Source: Okeania sp. SIO2C9 (GTDB lineage Bacteria; Cyanobacteriota; Cyanobacteriia; Cyanobacteriales; Microcoleaceae). Taken from it: 34,142 bases of DNA. The notes beneath the pieces were generated by a model, which was not told the origin of the DNA, did not search any database, and worked only from the letters and a program-made list of their open reading frames with translations. Position 1 is the stretch's first letter; every line of letters begins with the position of its first letter. A program made the translations under genes and the position numbers. Of the stretch, positions 4,985-27,761 are shown in pieces. The stretch covers positions 1 to 34,142 of the forward strand of contig NZ_JAAHGO010000059.1 of the NCBI RefSeq assembly GCF_010672455.1. The letters are read 5' to 3'.

Positions 4985-5110
4985 TCAGTGACATACTCCC
5001 ACACTAAGCTGGCGCTATAGTGTGGGCTTCTCGTTTCGCAGCCCTGCCATTGCATCGGGCTCCACGAGCTTTAAGGACGGAATGCCCTACCGCCCTATTT
5101 TTGATATTTA
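4985..5110 (-). ncRNA. Probable omega (re)RNA and right end of the adjacent tnpB element
   Basis: On the minus strand the tnpB 3' end runs into a strong hairpin (CCCACACTA/TAGTGTGGG, within about 4999-5027) and then GTGGGAGTATGTCAC, which resembles IS200/IS605 right ends. TnpB guide RNAs are known to come from this 3'-overlapping region. The boundaries are estimates, and no transcript evidence is available here. Confidence 0.4.
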
Positions 5111-6278
5111 TCGCTGCATTTCCTAGGTCATGCTGCGCAAACAAGTCGCGGTCTATTACAATACCGCAATGTGGACAAGAATGAGTTCGTATGTTTAATT
5201 CTTTAGGGACTTTTTCCCCACAATTTGAGCAGTCTTGGCTAGTATTTTTGGGGTTTACTGCTATTGTTTTCTGTCCAGCATTTGCCTCTTTCAGAGGAGC
5301 TGCGCTAACGGCTTTGACAGTCAAAATAGACAGGAATTGACCCCATCCAGCATCGTTAATTGATTTACTCAAATGAGTCTTTGCTAGCCCTTTAATGTTT
5401 AAGTTTTCATGGGCGATAACATCCGCTTTTGATAACAATTCATTAGCTGTTTTAAAGTGAAAAGATTTACGTTTATCGGCTACCTTTTTATGTTGTTTGG
5501 CTACAGCTTTAACAGTTTTTAGCCTCCTTTTACTTCCTTTTTTCTTTCGATATAAACGTTTTTGTAGAGTCTTTAATCGCTTCTGAGATTTTCTATAGTA
5601 TTGAGGGATGGGGACAAATTCTCCTTCACTTGTTACTAAGAATTCCTTCAACCCCATATCGATTCCCAGAGTATTTTTTAATGTAGGTTCAACATTAAAA
5701 GTCAAAGCTGGAACTGATTTTTCTTCTAGGGATAAAGTCACATAATAACCATCAGCTTTACGACTAATAGTAACAGTTTTAATTTGAAAACCATCAGGTA
5801 ACGGCCGATGTTGAATCAACTTGATATTGCCTATTTTGGGCAAGTTTATCTTGTTTTCTTGAATGCAGTCTTGCTTGATTTGAGGATAAGTAAAACTACG
5901 ATAACGTCCTTTTCCCTTAAACCTTGCTTTCCCTAGTTTATGTCCATTTTTGTCTGCTGTAAACCATCTATCAAAGGCAAGTTTTACTCGTTTTATGCAA
6001 TCCTGGCATACCTGAGAATGAATCAGCTTGTACTCAGGAAACTTGTCTTTGGTATTGACCAAATCTTTTTTTTGAGAGTAATAATCTGGATTATCTCTAA
6101 GTTGAGGAATTGGCATCACCAAGGGGCAAGCGTTAACTGAACAACGGTTTTCTTCCCACCATGAGAATCTTTCACTCAAACGATAGTTGTACTGACGACG
6201 CAACAATTCTAACCACAATTCTATTATGGCTATTTGTTCTTTGTTAGGCCTTAATTTATATTGGTAAGCAGTCCGCAT
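5004..6278 (-). CDS. tnpB: TnpB, RNA-guided nuclease of an IS200/IS605-type element, with two in-frame insertions
   Basis: This 424-residue protein begins at ATG 6278. The RuvC-like nuclease core is visible: LGIDMGLKEF (D207), IAHENLNIKGLA (E291), zinc ribbon C350/C353 and C368/C371, and IDRD ending at D378. Two stretches break the family pattern. At about residues 324-332, VSAAPLKEA interrupts the usual KAxNAGQKTIAV. At about 379-385, LFAQHDL separates DRD from GNAAINI, where the family has DRDxNAAxNI. Both coincide with small dispersed repeats in the DNA. The last 20 or so residues are also unusual; another frame there reads AGLRNEKPTL then stop, closer to the family ending, so a late frameshift is possible. 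No tnpA lies nearby. Nuclease activity is doubtful because of the insertion beside the active site. Confidence 0.9.
   Translation of the reverse strand: MRTAYQYKLRPNKEQIAIIELWLELLRRQYNYRLSERFSWWEENRCSVNACPLVMPIPQLRDNPDYYSQKKDLVNTKDKFPEYKLIHSQVCQDCIKRVKLAFDRWFTADKNGHKLGKARFKGKGRYRSFTYPQIKQDCIQENKINLPKIGNIKLIQHRPLPDGFQIKTVTISRKADGYYVTLSLEEKSVPALTFNVEPTLKNTLGIDMGLKEFLVTSEGEFVPIPQYYRKSQKRLKTLQKRLYRKKKGSKRRLKTVKAVAKQHKKVADKRKSFHFKTANELLSKADVIAHENLNIKGLAKTHLSKSINDAGWGQFLSILTVKAVSAAPLKEANAGQKTIAVNPKNTSQDCSNCGEKVPKELNIRTHSCPHCGIVIDRDLFAQHDLGNAAINIKNRAVGHSVLKARGARCNGRAAKREAHTIAPA
5119..5143 (+). repeat. Small dispersed repeat X, copy 1, inside tnpB
   Basis: TTTCCTAGGTCATGCTGCGC followed by AAACA also occurs at 22483-22509 and, inverted with small changes, at 24638-24664. 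Inside tnpB it accounts for the extra residues right after the RuvC-III DRD motif and keeps the frame. It resembles the small dispersed repeats of about 21-27 nt described in cyanobacterial genomes. Confidence 0.75.
5284..5310 (-). repeat. Second small repeat inside tnpB
   Basis: On the minus strand this reads GTTAGCGCAGCTCCTCTGAA then AGAGGC. It starts with the same GTTAGCG as the inserts at 4876 and 11744 and contains a CCTCT/AGAGG hairpin. It explains the extra residues at about 324-332 of TnpB. The assignment is weaker than for the repeat at 5119 because only the first part is shared. Confidence 0.5.
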
Positions 6279-7916: not shown

Positions 7917-8519
7917 TTAGAATTTATTTTCAATCACTAACTCACTCAATGGTAATTGTCCTGGTTTTGGCCAAGGTTCTTTAACTTTTTTGCCAATAGC
8001 CAACATAGGACCCATTACATAATCTTTGGGTAAATTTATTAATTCTGCTACTTTTTGAATATCAAAACCAATCATCGGGCAGGAATCATAACCCATTGCT
8101 TTTGCTGTTAACATTAAGGTTTGCATTGCCATACCTATTGAACGTTGAGCTTCATCTCGCTGAAGCCATTCACGCCCTTGATGGAAAGGTTCTATCATAC
8201 CTACAAGTTGCTTTGCGACTTGCTCTGGAGCATTTTGCCAATAGCGATGAGGTTCTTTTTCCCAAGCTTTCATATCTGCTGTAAAGAGAATGAGCAAAGA
8301 AGCTTCTGTCATTTGGGCTTGATCGAAACCAAGCTCTCGGATCTTTTGTCGTAATTCTGGGTCTCTAAGAATAACAAAACGCCAATGTTGAATATTAAAG
8401 CTGGTAGGAGCTTGAATTGTTGCTTCTAGAAGTTTTTGTTCTTCTTGGGGTGTTATTTTATGGTTAGGATCATAATGTTTTACAGCGCGACGTTGATAAA
8501 TTACTTCTAAAGCATCCAT
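7917..8519 (-). CDS. Nitroreductase-family FMN oxidoreductase
   Basis: The 200-residue protein begins at ATG 8519 and is the usual size for the family. Signatures are the N-terminal YQRRAVKHYDPNHKI (FMN-phosphate contact RRAVK, 10-14), APTSFNIQHWRFVIL (37-51, cofactor-contacting region) and a C-terminal GYDSCPMIGFD segment typical of the family's FMN-binding fold. Such proteins use NAD(P)H and bound FMN to reduce nitro compounds, quinones or similar acceptors, usually as cytosolic dimers. The physiological substrate cannot be deduced. It sits upstream of glyA on the same strand, separated by a hairpin, and is probably its own transcription unit. Confidence 0.92.
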   Translation of the reverse strand: MDALEVIYQRRAVKHYDPNHKITPQEEQKLLEATIQAPTSFNIQHWRFVILRDPELRQKIRELGFDQAQMTEASLLILFTADMKAWEKEPHRYWQNAPEQVAKQLVGMIEPFHQGREWLQRDEAQRSIGMAMQTLMLTAKAMGYDSCPMIGFDIQKVAELINLPKDYVMGPMLAIGKKVKEPWPKPGQLPLSELVIENKF

Positions 8520-8814
8520 TGAGTCAAATTCCTCTTGATAAGTTTAAGATTTAGAAACTGAGTTTTTCAATAAAATGAAAACTCAAGTTGCCCTATTGAG
8601 GTTTTGTTTGTTAGGGAAAGGTTTTGCTAAATTTTACCTGAAATTAAGAGCAAATAATCTATCTAATTTTTGAGTCCTAAAAAGCTAGTCATTAAATTCC
8701 GATTGTATAGGAATACATACTGGAGAGTAAAGTACCCAAACCTTTCGCGTAGGGAACAGGAAAAAGGGAATAGAGGATCAAAAATAGAATTTTTCTGTAG
8801 TGTTGTGAAATGTT

Positions 8815-9360
8815 TGTAAGATAGCATTAATAAATTTGTATACTACTTTATTATCATCACATAGGGTGTATATTTGTTCAAATTTGTCTGCAATAATTAA
8901 AATACGATTCTGTGGATAATTATGCTGTATTTTATCAAAAATTTTTGATAATGAAGTAGTTTGATTTTAAAGTAATTTTTTTAGCTTTTTGGCTTTATTA
9001 TCTCATTTTTTTTCATTTATTTCTGGAATATAGAGTATGACTAAAGCTTTAGCAAGAGCATAAAAAGGATTTTTTCCAGGGCTAAAATATGCAAATAACC
9101 AATTTTTTGCTTTTGCTAATTTAGGCACTAATTATGCTAAAACCACTGAATATTTACCACTTTTTGATGCACCTAAAATTGGAATAAGATTCTTGACTTT
9201 AACATCCTTTAACCAATTTTTTTACAAATTTATCTCTACCACAAAAGTATTTAGCATTCTCTGGAATAAAACTATACGAACCTAGATAGAGAGAATTAAT
9301 ATTTTCCTCTGTTTGATGAGAATCTCTTTTCTCTTTTTCGGCGTTGATTATTTTGGCTAT
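8815..9360 (-). pseudogene. Decayed nSTAND-type ATPase gene fragment
   Basis: Read on the minus strand from about 9360 down, several frames joined together give a recognisable nSTAND1 pattern: YLGSYSFIPENAKYFCGRDK, then a degenerate P-loop ILGASKSGKYS (about 9145-9190), NWLFAYFSPGKNPFYALAKA after a frameshift, and near 8870 ILIIADKFEQIYTLCDDNKV. In-frame stops and shifts break it at least four times, and both the start and the 3' part are missing. Intact relatives are signalling NTPases fused to WD40, CHAT or similar domains. The gene is dead; the family call rests on recalled motif order. Confidence 0.7.
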
Positions 9361-9465
9361 GATTGTGCTTTAATGGCTATTGCCTAACTATTAACTCAAA
9401 GTATTTTTCTTTTGCCAAATTTAGGTTTCATAACTTGCTTGATTCACCAACGCCTCTTTTTCTAA

Positions 9466-10480
9466 ATAAGGTTTGAGACTACTATTGCGTATAGGCAAAT
9501 AGTAATGAATAATTTTTTAGTTTCTCATTTGCGATAAGTTATGGATTTTCTCTCGGTGGAGCCTTCGGAGAATTTTCAGAGAATGATAGTAGATGGAAAT
9601 TTATGCTCATCAAAGGTTTGAGACTACTATTGCGTATAGGCAAATAGTAATGAATAATTTTTTAGTTTCTAATTTGCGATAAGTTAGTGATTTTCTCTCT
9701 GTGGAGCCTTCGGAGAATTTTCAGAGAATGATAGTAGATGGAAATTTATGCTCATCAAAGGTTTGAGACTACTATTGCGTATAGGCAAATAGTAATGAAT
9801 AATTTTTTAGTTTCTAATTTGCGATAAGTTAGTGATTTTCTCTCGGTGGAGCCTTCGGAGAATTTTGAGAGAATGATAGTAGATGGAAATTTATGCTCAT
9901 CAAAGGTTTGAGACTACTATTGCGTATAACCAAATAGTAATGAATATTTTTTTAGTTTCTAATTTGCGATAAGTTATGGATTTTCTCTCTGTGAAGCCTT
10001 CTGAGAATTTTGAGAGAATGATAGTAGATGGAAATTTATGCTCATCAAAGGTTTGAGACTACTATTGCGTATAGGCAAATAGTAATGAATAATTTTTTAG
10101 TTTCTCATTTGCGATAAGTTAGTGATTTTCTCTCTGTGGAGCCTTCGGAGAATTTTCAGAGAATGATAGTAGGTGGAAATTTTGTCTCATCAAAGGTTTG
10201 AGACTACTATTGCGTATAGGCAAATAGTAATGAATATTTTTTTAGTTTCTAATTTGCGATAAGTTATGGATTTTCTCTCGGTGGAGTCTTCGGAGAATTT
10301 TGAGAGAATGATAGTAGGTGGAAATTTTGTCTCATCAAAGGTTTGAGACTACTATTGCGTATAGGCAAATAGTAATGAATATTTTTTTAGTTTCTAATTT
10401 GCGATAAGTTATGGATTTTCTCTCGGTGGAGTCTTCGGAGAATTTTGAGAGAATGATAGTAGGTGGAAATTTTGTCTCAT
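9466..10480. repeat. Array of seven 145-bp direct repeats
   Basis: Units start with (C)AAAGGTTTGAGACTACTATT at about 9466, 9611, 9756, 9901, 10046, 10191 and 10336, with a final partial start at 10481. The period is exactly 145 bp each time, with no insertions or deletions. Substitutions are few and clustered: TTTGTCTCAT replaces TTATGCTCAT from unit 5 onward, and units 6 and 7 are nearly identical. Each unit has two imperfect inverted repeats: TACTATTGC/GCAAATAGTA around a short loop, and TTCTCTC.../...GAGAGAA around GGAGCCTTCGGAGAATTTT. The array ends about 30 bp beyond the stop of the minus-strand gene at 10512. Confidence 0.95.
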
Positions 10481-10511
10481 CAAAGGTTTGATACTCTTCC
10501 CTATTGAATAC

Positions 10512-11624
10512 TTAGGATAAATTTAGCCACCAACCTCCTACTAATCCGCCGATAGTAATAACTGTCTGTAGTATCATAGAAATAGTAAAAACTTGTTGAT
10601 TTTCTATTTCTCTTGATTTTTGAATTTCTTGATTAAAAACTTCAAGATATTTTCCATTTTCTTTGAGAATAAATTTAGCTTCTTCAATACCAAACCTTGA
10701 TAAATTTTCTTCTTGCTCTACCAAAAATATATTGTAACTTGGATTTTGAAATAAAGATTTAAGTCCTTGGCGATATTGCTTTAATTCCTCTGTTTCTTCT
10801 GTAGAACCATTATCTACAATGTATTGAATACGGTCGAGTTTATACCCTTGTTTATTTGCATATTTATGTAAAAACTGACGCTGTTTATCTAGAGCAGTAG
10901 AGTTTGTTTTACAATCTTGATTTTCAGGGTTAATTACTCTAACAAAAATACAAACTTTAGGCTCATCTAAAGGTACTTTACTTTTGTCGATCTGGGTATT
11001 TGATATTAGTTGCAGGCTTCCTGCCCATATTGCTGCTAATATGGTAAAACCAATTACTATTAATAGATTTTTTCCTAGTTCTACTTGAATCAGTCTATCT
11101 AAAAGAGAAAACTTTATAATACCTGTTACGAGAGCGATCGCTTCTAGGATTGGTAATATAATTCCAGGTATATAAATTGCATAACTTAGTTTATTAGCAC
11201 CAAGATTCAGCAGATAAATCATAGGTATTGTTAACAATAACCAAATGATTTTTAATATTAAAGGAAAAACAGTTAAACCTAAACTATATAACCAAAAAAG
11301 TATTGCTAAAAATGGTGTAACTCTACATAGATTTAGAATATAGTTAAAATAATTTTTGGGATATTCAGGAAATATATTACATAAGAAACCAATAGACAGA
11401 CAACTAGCAGCCATACCAAAATCATGTTCTGTACCGACAGTTTTACTTTTTTGAAGAGGGAAAATTTTCGGTAACAGAAACCAACTTAATAAAATAATTG
11501 AACTAATGGTAATAACACGAATTATATCTACATATTGAAATAAGGAGCCGATTATTATTGCTACAATCAAATTAGTTATTAGAGATAATCCAATAGTTAA
11601 ATGTAGAGAAAATGATGTTTTCAT
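10512..11624 (-). CDS. Multi-pass membrane protein with a serine-recombinase-like domain lacking the catalytic serine
   Basis: The 370-residue protein begins at ATG 11624. Hydrophobic segments lie at about 8-28, 34-54, 102-120, 122-140, 148-170 and 185-206, with one more at about 345-367. Between the last two is a soluble region (about 222-333) that follows the N-terminal domain of IS607-type serine recombinases: CIFVRVINPENQ, where family members have YARVSxxxQ; DKQRQFLHKYANKQGY, matching the RQxxxLxxYAxxxGY pattern; RQGLKSLF; FLVEQEENLSRFG, matching VxxKDRLxRFG; and GKYLEVFNQE. The catalytic Ser position is Ile231 and the first Arg of DRLxR is Asn307, while R229 and R310 remain. Recombination activity is therefore unlikely. 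No DNA-binding MerR-like N-terminus is present. The role is unknown; a membrane-held oligomerisation or sensing module is inference only. Confidence 0.75.
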   Translation of the reverse strand: MKTSFSLHLTIGLSLITNLIVAIIIGSLFQYVDIIRVITISSIILLSWFLLPKIFPLQKSKTVGTEHDFGMAASCLSIGFLCNIFPEYPKNYFNYILNLCRVTPFLAILFWLYSLGLTVFPLILKIIWLLLTIPMIYLLNLGANKLSYAIYIPGIILPILEAIALVTGIIKFSLLDRLIQVELGKNLLIVIGFTILAAIWAGSLQLISNTQIDKSKVPLDEPKVCIFVRVINPENQDCKTNSTALDKQRQFLHKYANKQGYKLDRIQYIVDNGSTEETEELKQYRQGLKSLFQNPSYNIFLVEQEENLSRFGIEEAKFILKENGKYLEVFNQEIQKSREIENQQVFTISMILQTVITIGGLVGGWWLNLS

Positions 11625-12157
11625 ACTATTATGAAGAGATATGTTGAGATAGATGGTAAACTTTGCTATAGAAAAATCTAAAAAATCTCTGACGTGAAAT
11701 TATCTTTTTGTATTTCTATCTTCATCTAGAGGTACTGATAACTGTTAGCGTTTGCGTAGCATTCCGTAGAAAAGCTCTGACCTTAGGAGGCTAACTGATA
11801 ATTGATAACTGAAATAACCTGTTCCCTTAAACCTAAAATTTTGTACCTCACAAGTACAAGAATTGCTATAATTTTAATGAGAATAAATAGAAACAAATCT
11901 TGAGTTTAAATTTATTATAACTCAAGAAAATTAAAACTTTTTACTTATACGTTCAACTAATATAGTGTTTTCAAATGAGATGTAAATCTAGATTGAGCTT
12001 TTTCTAATCAAAAAAATCCTGTCTTGAGTATCCATTAATTATTGTGCAAAGCTACTATTTAATGCTGTTTTCTCTTCTTTACTGTTCCCAGATCCGGTGT
12101 TCCCTGTTCCCTTTTGAGTAAGACTCTGTTTCCGCATTTCAAATGAAAACGCTATAG
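11625..12157. other. Gene-free stretch with scattered repeats
   Basis: This is the upstream region of the recombinase-like gene and the downstream region of the oxygenase gene. It holds a small dispersed repeat at 11744-11795 and a single TGTACCTCAC motif at 11842-11851, which matches the ends of the family D elements and may pair with GAGGTAC at 11729. No coding signal was recognised. Confidence 0.5.
11744..11795 (+). repeat. Small dispersed repeat splitting a GATAACT heptamer tract
   Basis: The insert runs from GTTAGCGTTTGCGTAGC to GGAGGCTAAC and lies inside CTAGAGGTACTGATAACTG...CTGATAATTGATAACTG. At 22508-22543 the same context, CTAGAGGTACTGATAACTGA and onward, is uninterrupted. The pair works as an empty-site and filled-site comparison. 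Confidence 0.6.
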
Positions 12158-12712
12158 TTAATTACTCTCAGCTTCATACATAATATCAGTGCGCAAAACA
12201 TATTTAATGCCTGACTTTACCATGTCACCACAATGTAATTGACGATGGAAAAAAAATAAAGCATCTCCTTTATTTCCCGCTACTTCTTTACTTCTAAATT
12301 TTGTTGCACCACCTTCATAATTATCATTTAGATAAAATAATAAAGTCCATCTCGAACGTTCACCATTTTCTCTTTCATAGTAACCATCATAATGCCAACC
12401 AAACTTTTGACCAGGAGAATATTTATAAAACCTAAATCTCTCATTTAAACCAGTACAATATAATCTTTTGCATGGATTTTTTATGTAAGGCTTTGTTATT
12501 TCAAATAATTCTTTTGCTAATTTTTCATCATCGAAAATAACTCTATCATTATTTCTAATATTTGTGCCCATAATAAACCCTTGACTTGTTGTAATAGTTG
12601 CTGGTTCAAATCCAATTGATTCAGCCATTTCTATGTATTTATCGCATTGCTTTTCAGTCAGTAACTTTCGGACTACAAATAATTTATCTGAGTATCGATC
12701 TATTTGATTCAT
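12158..12712 (-). CDS. 2-oxoglutarate/Fe(II) dioxygenase, prolyl-4-hydroxylase type
   Basis: The 184-residue protein begins at ATG 12712. The double-stranded beta-helix iron site is visible as H107 and D109 in FGWHYDGYY and the distal H160 in RQLHCGDMV. K170 and R174 in SGIKYVLRTDIMYE are placed to bind 2-oxoglutarate. RWTLLFYLND, EGGATKF and KGDALFFFH between them follow the P4H order. Enzymes of this group hydroxylate prolines or other residues, or small molecules, using O2. No signal peptide is seen, so it is probably cytosolic. The protein is slightly short but complete in its core. It is isolated by more than 300 bp on each side, and the target is unknown. Confidence 0.92.
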   Translation of the reverse strand: MNQIDRYSDKLFVVRKLLTEKQCDKYIEMAESIGFEPATITTSQGFIMGTNIRNNDRVIFDDEKLAKELFEITKPYIKNPCKRLYCTGLNERFRFYKYSPGQKFGWHYDGYYERENGERSRWTLLFYLNDNYEGGATKFRSKEVAGNKGDALFFFHRQLHCGDMVKSGIKYVLRTDIMYEAESN

Positions 12713-12892
12713 ATAGAATCTTTTTTTCTTAATTTAAGTTTAGATACAATTAACCTACATTTGCAAAACAAACAGGATGCTTTTTATAGCTAAGAAAGAA
12801 TTGGTGCTTGACTTATGGGGATGATGAATCTTAGACTAGAGTTTTTCTAACTGTTCCCTACTATATAAACTGGAAACTTGTGTTACCGGATA

Positions 12893-13027
12893 ATTACAGT
12901 AGTTTCGGAGTTAGTGAGGTACAAAATTTTAGGACTTTAGGCAACAGGCAACAGGCAACAGGCAACAGGCAACAGGCAACAGAGAATTAATAAACTGTAC
13001 CTCACGCTTCCTAAAAAGTGCTGTAAT
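12893..13027. mobile_element. MITE-like element, family D, copy 1
   Basis: Inverted repeats GTGAGGTACA (12914-12923) and TGTACCTCAC (12996-13005) are nested in outer ATTACAG/CTGTAAT (12893-12899 and 13021-13027). The core is six GGCAACA heptamers (12940-12981). The same end pair bounds segments at 18110-18242 and 27481-27565. AATTATTAATT repeats follow at once. Confidence 0.65.
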
Positions 13028-13097
13028 AATTATTAATTATTAATTATTAATTGTTAATTGTTAAACTATTCCCTGACAACTGCTGCGAAGTCTAATA

Positions 13098-13382
13098 TCA
13101 ATCCTTTTTAGCTGATGATAAAGTCACTCCAGTAATTACATTTTTTGGCAGTTTAGGAGGTGCAGGATCGACTGTTAAATATAAAATACTACTGTAGGGA
13201 ATAACTTGAATACTATTATCTGTTAATTGTAAAACTAATTGATCGGATTTTTGAATTTGAAAAAGACGACTAGCAATACCAATATCTTCCCATCCTTGTC
13301 CCGATACTTCAAAGGTTTGAGTTTCTCCATTAATATAGGTTATTTTGACTTTAAAGGATAAAGAGTTTTCTTCAGTATTCAT
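13098..13382 (-). CDS. Small protein of unknown function
   Basis: The 94-residue frame begins at ATG 13382. The N-terminal two thirds look like a small beta-rich fold with alternating hydrophobics (FKVKITYINGETQTFEVSG, then DQLVLQLTDNSIQVIPYSSI). A proline-rich linker, PAPPKLPKN, and a short basic tail follow. There is no signal peptide, membrane segment or cysteine. No clear Shine-Dalgarno sequence precedes it. I do not recognise a family. The regular hydrophobic pattern and the lack of low-complexity sequence argue for a real protein. Confidence 0.6.
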   Translation of the reverse strand: MNTEENSLSFKVKITYINGETQTFEVSGQGWEDIGIASRLFQIQKSDQLVLQLTDNSIQVIPYSSILYLTVDPAPPKLPKNVITGVTLSSAKKD

Positions 13383-14033
13383 AATGATTATATTTTCAGA
13401 ATAAATATCTACTTGATTACTAATGTTAAGTTAAATATTGAAGATTATTATCAGTCAATATGACAATTTTAGAACTTGCACACCCTATAATACAATTTCT
13501 CAAAAACTTTTCTACATTTTCGCATTGCCGGGGAGTAGGGGAGTAGGGGAGAATTCATTAATCAATTATCAATTAATGAACTAATCCTATGTAATATTTT
13601 GGTGGTAATTAGGAGTTAGGAGTGAGGAGTATTAACGAAGTCACCAACTCAGAAGTTATTTTTGTAACAGGGATTTGAACCCCGCTCCAAAAATATTTCG
13701 CCTGAAAAGGCGGGGTTTTAAACCCAATTTTTTTGATGATTTTCAAAGTTTTCCGTTAATATTTACTGTGATAAAAATTTTCACAACCAATGCACGGATT
13801 GCTAGATTTCCTCCTTTTCTCGATCGGGGAAAACGTCAAAAATAATCACTGATTTAGTATTAAAAATTCTATATCTAAGCTAAGAATTTTTGCTTATTTA
13901 TGAAAAAGATTTTTATATGAAATACAAAAAATTGTACAAATATACGAATCTCCCCATCTCCCCACATTCTCCACATTCCCCACACTCATCTCCTAGATAA
14001 CTAATTGCCTTCTTCCTTCTTCCTTCTTCTTTC
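13383..14033. other. Gene-free stretch with short repeats
   Basis: The stretch contains GGGGAGTA heptamer-like repeats near 13530-13550, an inverted repeat TTCATTAAT/ATTAATGAA at 13554-13580, hairpin repeat Z at 13671-13725, and CTTCCTT repeats near 14011-14030 beside the ABC gene end. Nothing that looks like a gene was seen. Confidence 0.5.
13671..13725. repeat. Dispersed hairpin repeat Z, copy 1
   Basis: AACCCCGC (13678-13685) pairs with GCGGGGTT (13710-13717) around CTCCAAAAATATTTCGCC and adjacent bases. The unit recurs at 21291-21345 with few changes, and upstream TAACGAAGTCA and downstream TTTTGAT are also shared, so the mobile unit may be larger than the hairpin. Confidence 0.75.
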
Positions 14034-15695
14034 TTACTTCTGCAATAAAGGCGCAGCATTTAACAATGTCTGAGTATAAGAATGTTGAGGATGATTAAAT
14101 ATTTCTTCTGTTCTCCCCTCCTCAACAATTTTTCCACCATTCATAACAGCAATTCTGTCACAAATAAATCTAGCCACCCATAAATCGTGAGTAATAAATA
14201 AATAGGTTAAATTTAATTCTTCTTTTAACTCCAACATCAATTCCAAAACTTGAGTTTGAATAGTAGCGTCCAACATACTCACAGGTTCATCACAAATAAT
14301 CAGTTTTGGATTAGTAATCAAAGCTCTGGCAATAGCTACCCTTTGTTGTTGTCCTCCAGATAATTCTGAGGGGTATCTTGTTCCATATTCTGCTACTGGA
14401 GTCAAACCTACCTTTTCTAACATTTGCTCCACTTGAATTTTAGCTTCCTCTACACTAGCCAAGTTATGGATAAATAGAGGGTCAGTTACTATCTGGTCAA
14501 CAGTCATCATGGGGTTGAGACACGCTAGGGGGTCTTGAAATATCATTTGCATTTCCCGACGATAGGGTTGCAATGCTGATAAAGAGAGAGTTGTTAAGTC
14601 TTTGCCTTGAAATTCGACCGAGCCAGAAGTAGATTTAATTAACTGTAAAATAGTCCGAGATAAGGTACTTTTGCCACATCCAGATTCTCCAACTAATCCT
14701 ACTATTTCCCCTGGATAGAGGTCTAGGTTAACTCCATCCACTGCTTTGATAAGTTTACTTTTTCCAGAAAATAATAACTGCTCTATAAAATTACTTTCTA
14801 AGGTGTAGTGCTTCTGTAAATTTTTGACCTGCAAAATTGGTTTGAGGATTTTGGGAACTTCCGTTGATTCAGATTTTTCTGGTTGAATTTGAGCAGGAAT
14901 AGATTCAACTACTTGAATATGTAAGGCAGCTTGAAATAGAGATTTGGTATATTTATGTTGAGGATTGTAGAGAACTTGTTTAATGGAACCTGTTTCTACT
15001 ATTTCACCTCCGTACATTACAGCAATACGGTCACAATATTCTGCCACCATTGCCAAATCGTGGGAAATTAATAACAAGGAAGTCTGACGTTCTTGGCAAA
15101 GTCTGGTAAGTTCCCCTAAAATCTGAGACGCTATAGTTACATCCAAGCTAGTAGTAGGTTCATCCGCAACAATTAACTTAGGGTCCAGTAATAAAGCTAA
15201 AGCGATCGCCACCCTTTGTCGCATTCCCCCACTAAATTCATGGGGATATTGAGACCAACGACTGGCAGGAATATTTACCGCTTCGAGAGTTTCTATAGAT
15301 TTTTGTTGTGCCTGAGATTTAGATATATTGGGTTGATGAGCTTGAATTGTTTCTACACAATGATCCCCAATAGTCATTAATGGATCGAGGCGAGTCATAG
15401 GGTCTTGGAAAACTAATGCTACTGCTTCTCCACGAAATTTTCTCAGTCGGGAGGGGTTCATCCCAAATATGTATTCTCCCCCAAATGTTATAGACCCCTC
15501 AACTTGTACTGACTTAGGTAATAATCTCATGGCAGCACGTCCAAGGGTAGATTTGCCGCATCCAGATTCTCCCACTAATCCTAATTTTTCACCTGGTTGA
15601 AGTGTGAGGGAGACATCATTTACTGCCCAATGAGATTTTCCACGTTTTTCGGGATAAGCTACTCGTAGATTTTTTATATCAAGTAAGGAATTCAT
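14034..15695 (-). CDS. ABC transporter, two fused ATPase domains, oligopeptide/dipeptide type
   Basis: The 553-residue protein begins at ATG 15695. Two complete nucleotide-binding domains lie in tandem. Domain 1 has Walker A GESGCGKST (42-50), signature FSGGMRQRVAIA (154-165) and Walker B LIVADEP (174-180). Domain 2 has Walker A GESGCGKST (336-344), signature LSGGQQQRVAIA (445-456) and Walker B LIICDEP (465-471). The HKYTKSLF and HSYTQTLL segments after each domain are typical of DppD/DppF-type subunits, which import peptides, nickel or glutathione. Fusion of the two ATPases as in GsiA- or DdpDF-like proteins is known. No permease or binding protein lies in the window, so the partners are elsewhere and the substrate is open. 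Confidence 0.95.
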   Translation of the reverse strand: MNSLLDIKNLRVAYPEKRGKSHWAVNDVSLTLQPGEKLGLVGESGCGKSTLGRAAMRLLPKSVQVEGSITFGGEYIFGMNPSRLRKFRGEAVALVFQDPMTRLDPLMTIGDHCVETIQAHQPNISKSQAQQKSIETLEAVNIPASRWSQYPHEFSGGMRQRVAIALALLLDPKLIVADEPTTSLDVTIASQILGELTRLCQERQTSLLLISHDLAMVAEYCDRIAVMYGGEIVETGSIKQVLYNPQHKYTKSLFQAALHIQVVESIPAQIQPEKSESTEVPKILKPILQVKNLQKHYTLESNFIEQLLFSGKSKLIKAVDGVNLDLYPGEIVGLVGESGCGKSTLSRTILQLIKSTSGSVEFQGKDLTTLSLSALQPYRREMQMIFQDPLACLNPMMTVDQIVTDPLFIHNLASVEEAKIQVEQMLEKVGLTPVAEYGTRYPSELSGGQQQRVAIARALITNPKLIICDEPVSMLDATIQTQVLELMLELKEELNLTYLFITHDLWVARFICDRIAVMNGGKIVEEGRTEEIFNHPQHSYTQTLLNAAPLLQK

Positions 15696-27480: not shown

Positions 27481-27565
27481 TGAGGTACAGTTTTATATTA
27501 ATCTCTATTCCCTCTTTTGTTTCCCTAGATGAGGTATTGCCTAGTACCCAAAATTTTGTACCTCC
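27481..27565. mobile_element. MITE-like element, family D, copy 3
   Basis: GTGAGGTACA (27481-27490) and TGTACCTC (27558-27565) bound 85 bp; outer TACAG and CTGTA flank it. CAAAATTTTGTACCTC matches the end of the copy at 12914. Confidence 0.6.
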
Positions 27566-27761
27566 GGAAAGTGGCAAACTGCTGTAAGTTATTTGTAAAA
27601 GTAAACCCTTAAGACTTAACAGAGAACATAAAATCTAAATGTGTCTTAGCTTAAGTCAAGAGTAGGAACCTAATCAGATTTTCTGGCGTTGAGTCGTGGT
27701 AATGATTTTGAGATTAACTTTGGGCGCAAAACATAAGTTTTTCAATTTTACCTTCAGCTAA

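Follow-up and report, generated by a model that had tools for sequence, protein, structure and literature searches.

A membrane-anchored resolvase domain without catalytic residues in Okeania sp. SIO2C9 and the small gene linked to it

A membrane-resolvase gene and its surroundings

The window analysed here, a stretch of 34,142 nucleotides from the cyanobacterium Okeania sp. SIO2C9 (contig NZ_JAAHGO010000059.1), carries on its minus strand at 10512..11624 a gene for a protein of 370 residues, which we call MR (membrane-resolvase). Its open reading frame has a full-length homologue with 57% identity in a second genome, G311 (L015:1495-2625). Residues 1-210 (10995..11624, minus strand) form an N-terminal membrane region with six clear, possibly seven, hydrophobic helices according to hydropathy and a low-confidence single-sequence model. 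Residues 222-333 (10626..10961, minus strand) are a serine-recombinase catalytic domain of the IS607 type without the catalytic serine and without the Asp-Arg of the DRLxR motif. Residues 345-363 (10536..10592, minus strand), a C-terminal hydrophobic helix by hydropathy, lie at the place of the helix-E region of IS607 TnpA.

The initial annotation had counted six hydrophobic segments before the domain and a seventh after it, and hydropathy agrees: segments 11-29, 34-52, 96-114, 115-133, 152-170 and 189-207 precede the domain, and a single one follows it (345-363, hydropathy 1.86; 350-368 in the G311 homologue, hydropathy 1.61). The single-sequence model draws seven helices ahead of the domain with low confidence (pLDDT 47), the extra one being 63-84, and in the G311 homologue hydropathy gives an extra weak segment at 68-86. 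As read from sequence and hydropathy, the positive charges fit a cytosolic domain with six preceding helices, but not clearly with seven. From its ancestry, and from these charges if six helices precede it, the domain would lie on the cytosolic side. When residues 1-220 alone were searched against 388 genomes of the class, they found their own genome and one weak match of 53 residues with three stops, i. e. no convincing homologue outside the MR family.

On the same strand as MR and 1473 bases away lies SM (13098..13382), whose product of 94 residues is a rare variant within a family of small cyanobacterial proteins. Between the two is a gene for a 2OG-Fe(II) oxygenase (12158..12712, minus strand; Pfam PF13640, 1.4e-11), flanked at 11832-12933 by perfect inverted 20-base repeats (42-base arms, 76% complementary); a third copy of the 20-base repeat with 3 mismatches is found at 27547-27566. 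The oxygenase gene and its repeats may be a small mobile element. In an all-against-all comparison of neighbouring ORFs, none beside MR in G311 or beside the MR remnant in a third genome, G298, was an oxygenase, and the oxygenase probably stands outside the MR-SM module.

The segment of about 3.5 kb that holds MR, oxygenase and SM (10509..14004) has no counterpart at the corresponding place in any of four congeners (E 1e-3, in the stretches fetched), and no full-length MR was found elsewhere in these genomes. It is thus specific to the window genome among five of the genus. The neighbouring ABC transporter gene (14034-15695) has orthologues with 96-98% identity in all four congeners, and glyA is syntenic in G002, G003 and G004, the contig of G001 ending short of it. 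The insertion spot is variable, as the congeners there also differ from one another. An array of 145-base tandem repeats, about seven in number and 94-98% alike over 300-base stretches, occupies 9468-10495 and stops close to the 3' end of MR. In the congener stretches fetched, this array is present in G001, G002 and G004 and absent in G003.

A tnpB-like gene (5004-6278; OrfB_IS605, Cas12f1-like TNB) lies between glyA and a glycosyltransferase gene, 4.2 kb from MR with nitroreductase and glyA in between, and no candidate tnpA ORF of at least 100 aa adjoins it. Of the ORFs directly beside MR that were scanned in the window, in G311 and in G298, none was a tnpB. The neighbours of MR in G311 are a GUN4-domain gene and two protein kinases; the remnant in G298 lies beside a gene for a SLOG-GUN4-pentapeptide-receiver protein. 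A scan of 8500-14100 against Rfam had no hit at gathering scores.

Homology, fold and active site of the resolvase domain

Serine recombinases are known as soluble DNA enzymes. The initial annotation had read residues 222-333 as an IS607-type resolvase domain, and the profile searches bear this out. Residues 220-337 match the NCBIfam model for IS607 transposases (NF033518) with an E-value of 5.2e-9 and 35.9 bits, far under the curated cut-off of 110 bits. PHROG 6620 (transposase) is matched at 7.8e-8, and among PDB sequences 3lhk at 0.00048 and 6dgc at 0.0011. The likeness to small serine resolvases and invertases of the gamma-delta type is a weak match to Pfam Resolvase (PF00239, E 0.0032), under the gathering score. 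Scores under the NCBIfam and Pfam cut-offs are expected from a diverged domain. The G311 homologue alone gives weaker matches (NF033518 7.0e-6, E for one genome; PHROG 6620 3.3e-4; no Pfam family in a scan at 0.01), and a profile of both MR proteins matches 3lhk at 0.017 and 6dgc at 0.048. Judged from these scores, the similarity of the MR domain to IS607 is beyond chance.

The initial annotation had proposed a structure prediction as a check. With MR residues 205-350 and 66 IS607 catalytic domains, out of 80 viral-contig loci, as input, AlphaFold2 gave a model with pLDDT 77 and pTM 0.71. In a Foldseek search of the PDB, the top seven matches to this model come from chains of 6dgc and 3lhk, both IS607-like serine recombinases (E 6e-6 to 2e-4, TM about 0.55, rmsd 3.6-5.9), and other serine recombinases come next. 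Since the alignment contained 66 IS607 rows, this result is supportive rather than an independent proof, and the homology rests on the profile scores. The single-sequence model is poor (pLDDT 47), yet its strand-helix-strand-helix-strand are correctly placed. A resolvase fold of the domain is thus supported by the predictions.

To compare residues, the MR domain was aligned with 44 IS607 TnpA (170-240 aa) encoded in the loci retrieved; of 49 ORFs found, three belonged to MR (window, G311 and a piece of that of G311) and two IS607 ORFs below 170 aa were left out. Ile231 (codon 10932..10934, minus strand) occupies the position of the catalytic serine of YARVS, which is serine in all 44 TnpA. Asn307 aligns with the first arginine of DRLxR (43/44). 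Both assignments had been made in the initial annotation, which also asked whether the two residues are conserved. The loss of serine and arginine is indeed common to both MR proteins, but the letters themselves differ, G311 having Val and His. The Asp of DRLxR (Asp in 40, Glu in two of the 44) has changed as well, to Glu306 in the window and to Glu in G311, so that codons 10704..10709 (minus strand) read Glu-Asn in place of Asp-Arg, and Glu-His in G311.

Other residues in the region of the old active site are kept in both MR proteins: Arg229, Gln248, Arg285 and Glu303, each found in 44 of the 44 TnpA, and Arg310, the second arginine of DRLxR (43). We take Arg229, Arg285 and Arg310 to correspond to Arg8, Arg45 and Arg71 in gamma-delta numbering, residues of the phosphate site. 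Altogether, 47 columns are conserved in at least 85% of the 44 TnpA; both MR proteins keep 20 of them, both lose 25 (two of these being gaps in G311) and 2 are mixed. Two inserts relative to the IS607 consensus are common to both, one of six residues within CKTNSTA/GKTNSHA, the other of seven in the loop GSTEETEE/GSIEETEE.

Could MR still be an active recombinase that uses another nucleophile? Several active-site residues are kept, and both proteins have Thr240 and Ser242 in the inserted loop after Asp237. We nevertheless consider this scarcely credible. The first DRLxR arginine is lost in both proteins, hydrophobic segments lie on either side of the domain, and MR has no DNA-binding domain. 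The last point, made already in the initial annotation, agrees with a Pfam search at E up to 1, which found no HTH family; hydrophobic helices occupy its place. Moreover, IS607 OrfA with Gly at the active Ser gave no transposition (PMC6188088).

MR thus resembles IS607-family TnpA (NF033518; 6dgc, 6dgb, 3lhk) in the sequence and predicted fold of the catalytic domain and in the five kept residues. It differs from TnpA by the missing nucleophile, Asp-Arg pair, N-terminal HTH and helix-E region, by its embedding in a membrane protein and by its immediate neighbours, which do not include tnpB. The embedding and the missing nucleophile and Asp-Arg pair also set it apart from small serine resolvases and invertases; in gamma-delta resolvase the DNA-binding domain is C-terminal (PMC6188088).

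Distribution, conservation and the linked gene SM

Full-length MR was searched against 388 genomes of the order. This gave a single further intact member, that of G311 (E 5e-131), which has the same architecture and belongs to a different family of the order, and in G298 a truncated remnant consisting of the last 63 residues. The arrangement of membrane helices and resolvase domain, for which the initial annotation had suggested a search of other cyanobacteria, is thus no accident of one genome, for the intact homologue from another family has lost the serine and the arginine too. No further member was found in 59 relatives, 217 genomes of the family of G311, 61 of the own family and 386 of the phylum (overlapping sets). 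The counts from these searches are lower bounds, as the best five candidates per genome were scored in the order and phylum searches, the best nine in the 217 genomes of G311's family and the best 12 in the search of the order with SM. MR matched plasmids and phages in the domain, and all these matches were of IS607 transposase or resolvase-like type. Protein-pattern scans of genome and viral contigs gave no MR relative; with few short starting peptides, this is weak evidence of absence.

The other matches in the MR searches cover the domain alone, and the ORFs translated from them are IS607 TnpA of 143-212 aa, save one. This one, in G083 (L138:1500-3125, minus strand), is a glycosyltransferase of 541 aa with a C-terminal IS607-type resolvase domain (Pfam Resolvase 2e-11). 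As in MR, such a domain is joined to an unrelated protein and DRLxR has degenerated (GKLDW). Unlike MR, the fusion keeps the serine of YARVS, has a glycosyltransferase as partner and was seen in one genome. Three weak matches that reach into the membrane part (G000:C24, G029, G291) contain 4 to 7 stops each and were taken as chance or as extended IS607 matches.

Between the two MR proteins the domain is the best-conserved part, as far as two sequences can be compared: it is 74.6% identical (pN 0.14, and pS 0.78 with saturation of synonymous changes), as compared with 51.9% for the membrane part (pN 0.28, pS 0.62) and 35% for the C-terminal tail. This comparison of pN and pS in two sequences argues that selection has kept the domain outside a transposon. 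It also bears on the idea that MR is a decaying fusion, in which a fragment of IS607 dropped into a membrane-protein gene and left a functionless ORF. The loss of catalytic residues and HTH, the absence of MR from nearly all genomes searched and the remnant in G298 would fit such an origin. Yet a full-length homologue without stops in another family, and amino-acid changes far fewer than synonymous ones, above all in the domain, already contradict it, and we regard it as very improbable.

In a tree with the 44 IS607 TnpA, the MR pair forms one branch with a support of 100/100 and a very long stem. Because of this stem, the unusual letter make-up of both MR rows and a bootstrap that had not settled, the tree is silent on when MR left IS607. 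MR shares 27% identity with the other match in its own genome and 35-38% with the closest TnpA elsewhere. These values speak against the possibility that MR acts as a dominant-negative brake on IS607, its dead domain pairing with active TnpA and holding it at the membrane. The numbers of matches to the IS607 model would be in line with a brake in one respect: with MR itself and fragments counted, there are 20 in the own genome and 22 in G311, compared to 2 in G298, where MR is broken. But three genomes prove nothing, and most of the 57 genomes with matches in the search of the order carry IS607 TnpA without MR. Changes in helix D, described next, add to the reasons why a brake appears quite improbable.

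IS607 TnpA catalytic domains dimerise via helices B and D, and the dimers form nucleoprotein filaments (PMC6188088). Hence the dead domain might be an oligomerisation scaffold and nothing more, i. e. it would dimerise via these helices and hold membrane subunits together without any ligand. The two MR proteins differ little in helix B and the following strand, as a scaffold would have it. However, two helix-D positions that are constant in 44 of 44 TnpA are altered, Tyr to Glu315 and Leu to Ile319 (Thr in G311), the assignment to helix D being taken from the order of elements in the AlphaFold2 model. Besides, residues of the old active-site region, which a scaffold does not need, are kept. A pure scaffold is therefore unlikely in our view, if worth serious consideration.

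In three of three genomes with MR or its remnant, SM is found less than 2 kb away, a linkage seen in these three genomes only. In G311 the relative of SM (47% identity) is found 960 bases past the MR gene; in G298 it follows about 75 bases past the remnant and has a single in-frame TAG, so that in this genome both genes are broken, MR cut down and SM interrupted. The two genes are on the same strand in the window and convergent in G311 and G298, and an unrelated gene separates them in the window and in G311. A profile search with SM in the 388 genomes of the order gave matches in 20. The three with E below 1e-45 are the genomes with MR or its remnant; in the remaining 17 the form is more remote (E 5e-12 to 5e-4), its identity to the two SM proteins being 24-36%. 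Near these 17 no MR-like ORF was found among ORFs of at least 60 aa (best E 0.68; some regions end at contig ends). Thus, in the regions fetched, it is the SM variant and not the whole small-protein family that accompanies MR.

A single-protein search of 39 further relatives of G311, among them four of the same genus, found no SM. SM also had no match among plasmids and phages, no Pfam family above cut-off and no relative among solved structures at a useful E-value. The broader family (L121-L137 and window 13098-13382) shares the pattern Y-NG--Q-FEF ... IP--NI--IEI-P-P-KLP and recurs in the same kinds of chromosomal context; the gene beside some of the distant relatives is presumably hemL. The two members of it that were scanned gave no Pfam family above cut-off.

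A putative switch at the membrane

What the computations establish is that a membrane protein has a domain derived from a transposase, that this domain is without its catalytic residues, that members from two families conserve it and that SM lies beside it. The initial annotation had suggested that the resolvase fold is reused here at the membrane, for example for oligomerisation or signalling. The homology, the loss of nucleophile and arginine in two families, the missing DNA-binding domain, the conservation of the domain and the hydrophobic helix replacing the helix-E region all support such a reuse, for which oligomerisation and signalling are putative roles. The changed Asp of DRLxR, the linked gene SM, the variable insertion spot and the retained arginines go beyond it. 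The initial annotation also knew of no described system of this kind. A search of titles and starts of abstracts in the open literature, with subscription papers mostly outside its coverage and hence as weak evidence, found no membrane-anchored or catalytically dead serine recombinase domain. Like domesticated transposases in general, MR is a transposon-derived domain that appears to be under selection outside a transposon; it differs from them in being a membrane-anchored serine-recombinase domain without catalytic residues.

In our reading, the resolvase domain of MR is exapted and non-catalytic, is anchored at the membrane, and belongs to a module that moves horizontally. The catalytic domain of an IS607-type transposase would have been captured long ago between membrane helices and would then have lost its nucleophile, the Asp-Arg pair of DRLxR and the DNA-binding domain. 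Selection would have retained the dead domain as a non-catalytic cytosolic module of the multi-pass MR, which may travel with SM, a dedicated small soluble protein, as an accessory module. MR is probably a switch controlled by a ligand or a partner. Through Arg229, Arg285, Arg310, Gln248 and Glu303 the dead domain could bind a phosphate-bearing ligand or SM itself, and binding would alter its oligomeric state and thereby switch the membrane part, with SM as the regulator. We infer these last steps, i. e. the binding through the kept residues, the switching and the role of SM. A dimer switch is possible given the dimerisation of the IS607 catalytic domains (PMC6188088), although the two changed helix-D positions could temper this idea. 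The retained residues could instead have a structural role. Taken as a whole, the captured domain, the module with SM and the switch driven by ligand or SM are our best explanation, which we hold tentatively, at somewhat less than an even chance; MR is known from two intact members and one remnant, which counts against it, as do the varying orientation of MR and SM to each other, the unrelated gene that separates them in two genomes, and the searches that gave SM no solved relative at a useful E-value and MR no PADLOC match.

The patchy distribution, the joint decay in G298 and the variable insertion spot resemble those of accessory or conflict modules; the PADLOC models gave 0 families for both MR proteins at E up to 1. 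One could go further and suppose that the dead active site with its three conserved arginines is a nucleic-acid or nucleotide sensor gating a membrane effector, which together with SM would form a mobile defence or toxin-antitoxin-like module. We consider this rather doubtful.

Returning to the switch as the preferred reading, the design of MR recurs in a member of another genus, so that an old enzyme fold seems to have been taken over for a different task at the membrane. With SM beside MR, the system lends itself to experiment, as it consists of two genes that some close relatives naturally lack and that are both broken in one genome. Through a conserved serine recombinase without catalytic residues that is part of a membrane protein, transposase domestication would reach as far as the membrane, and MR could show how a fold that cuts DNA turns into a sensor or a scaffold.
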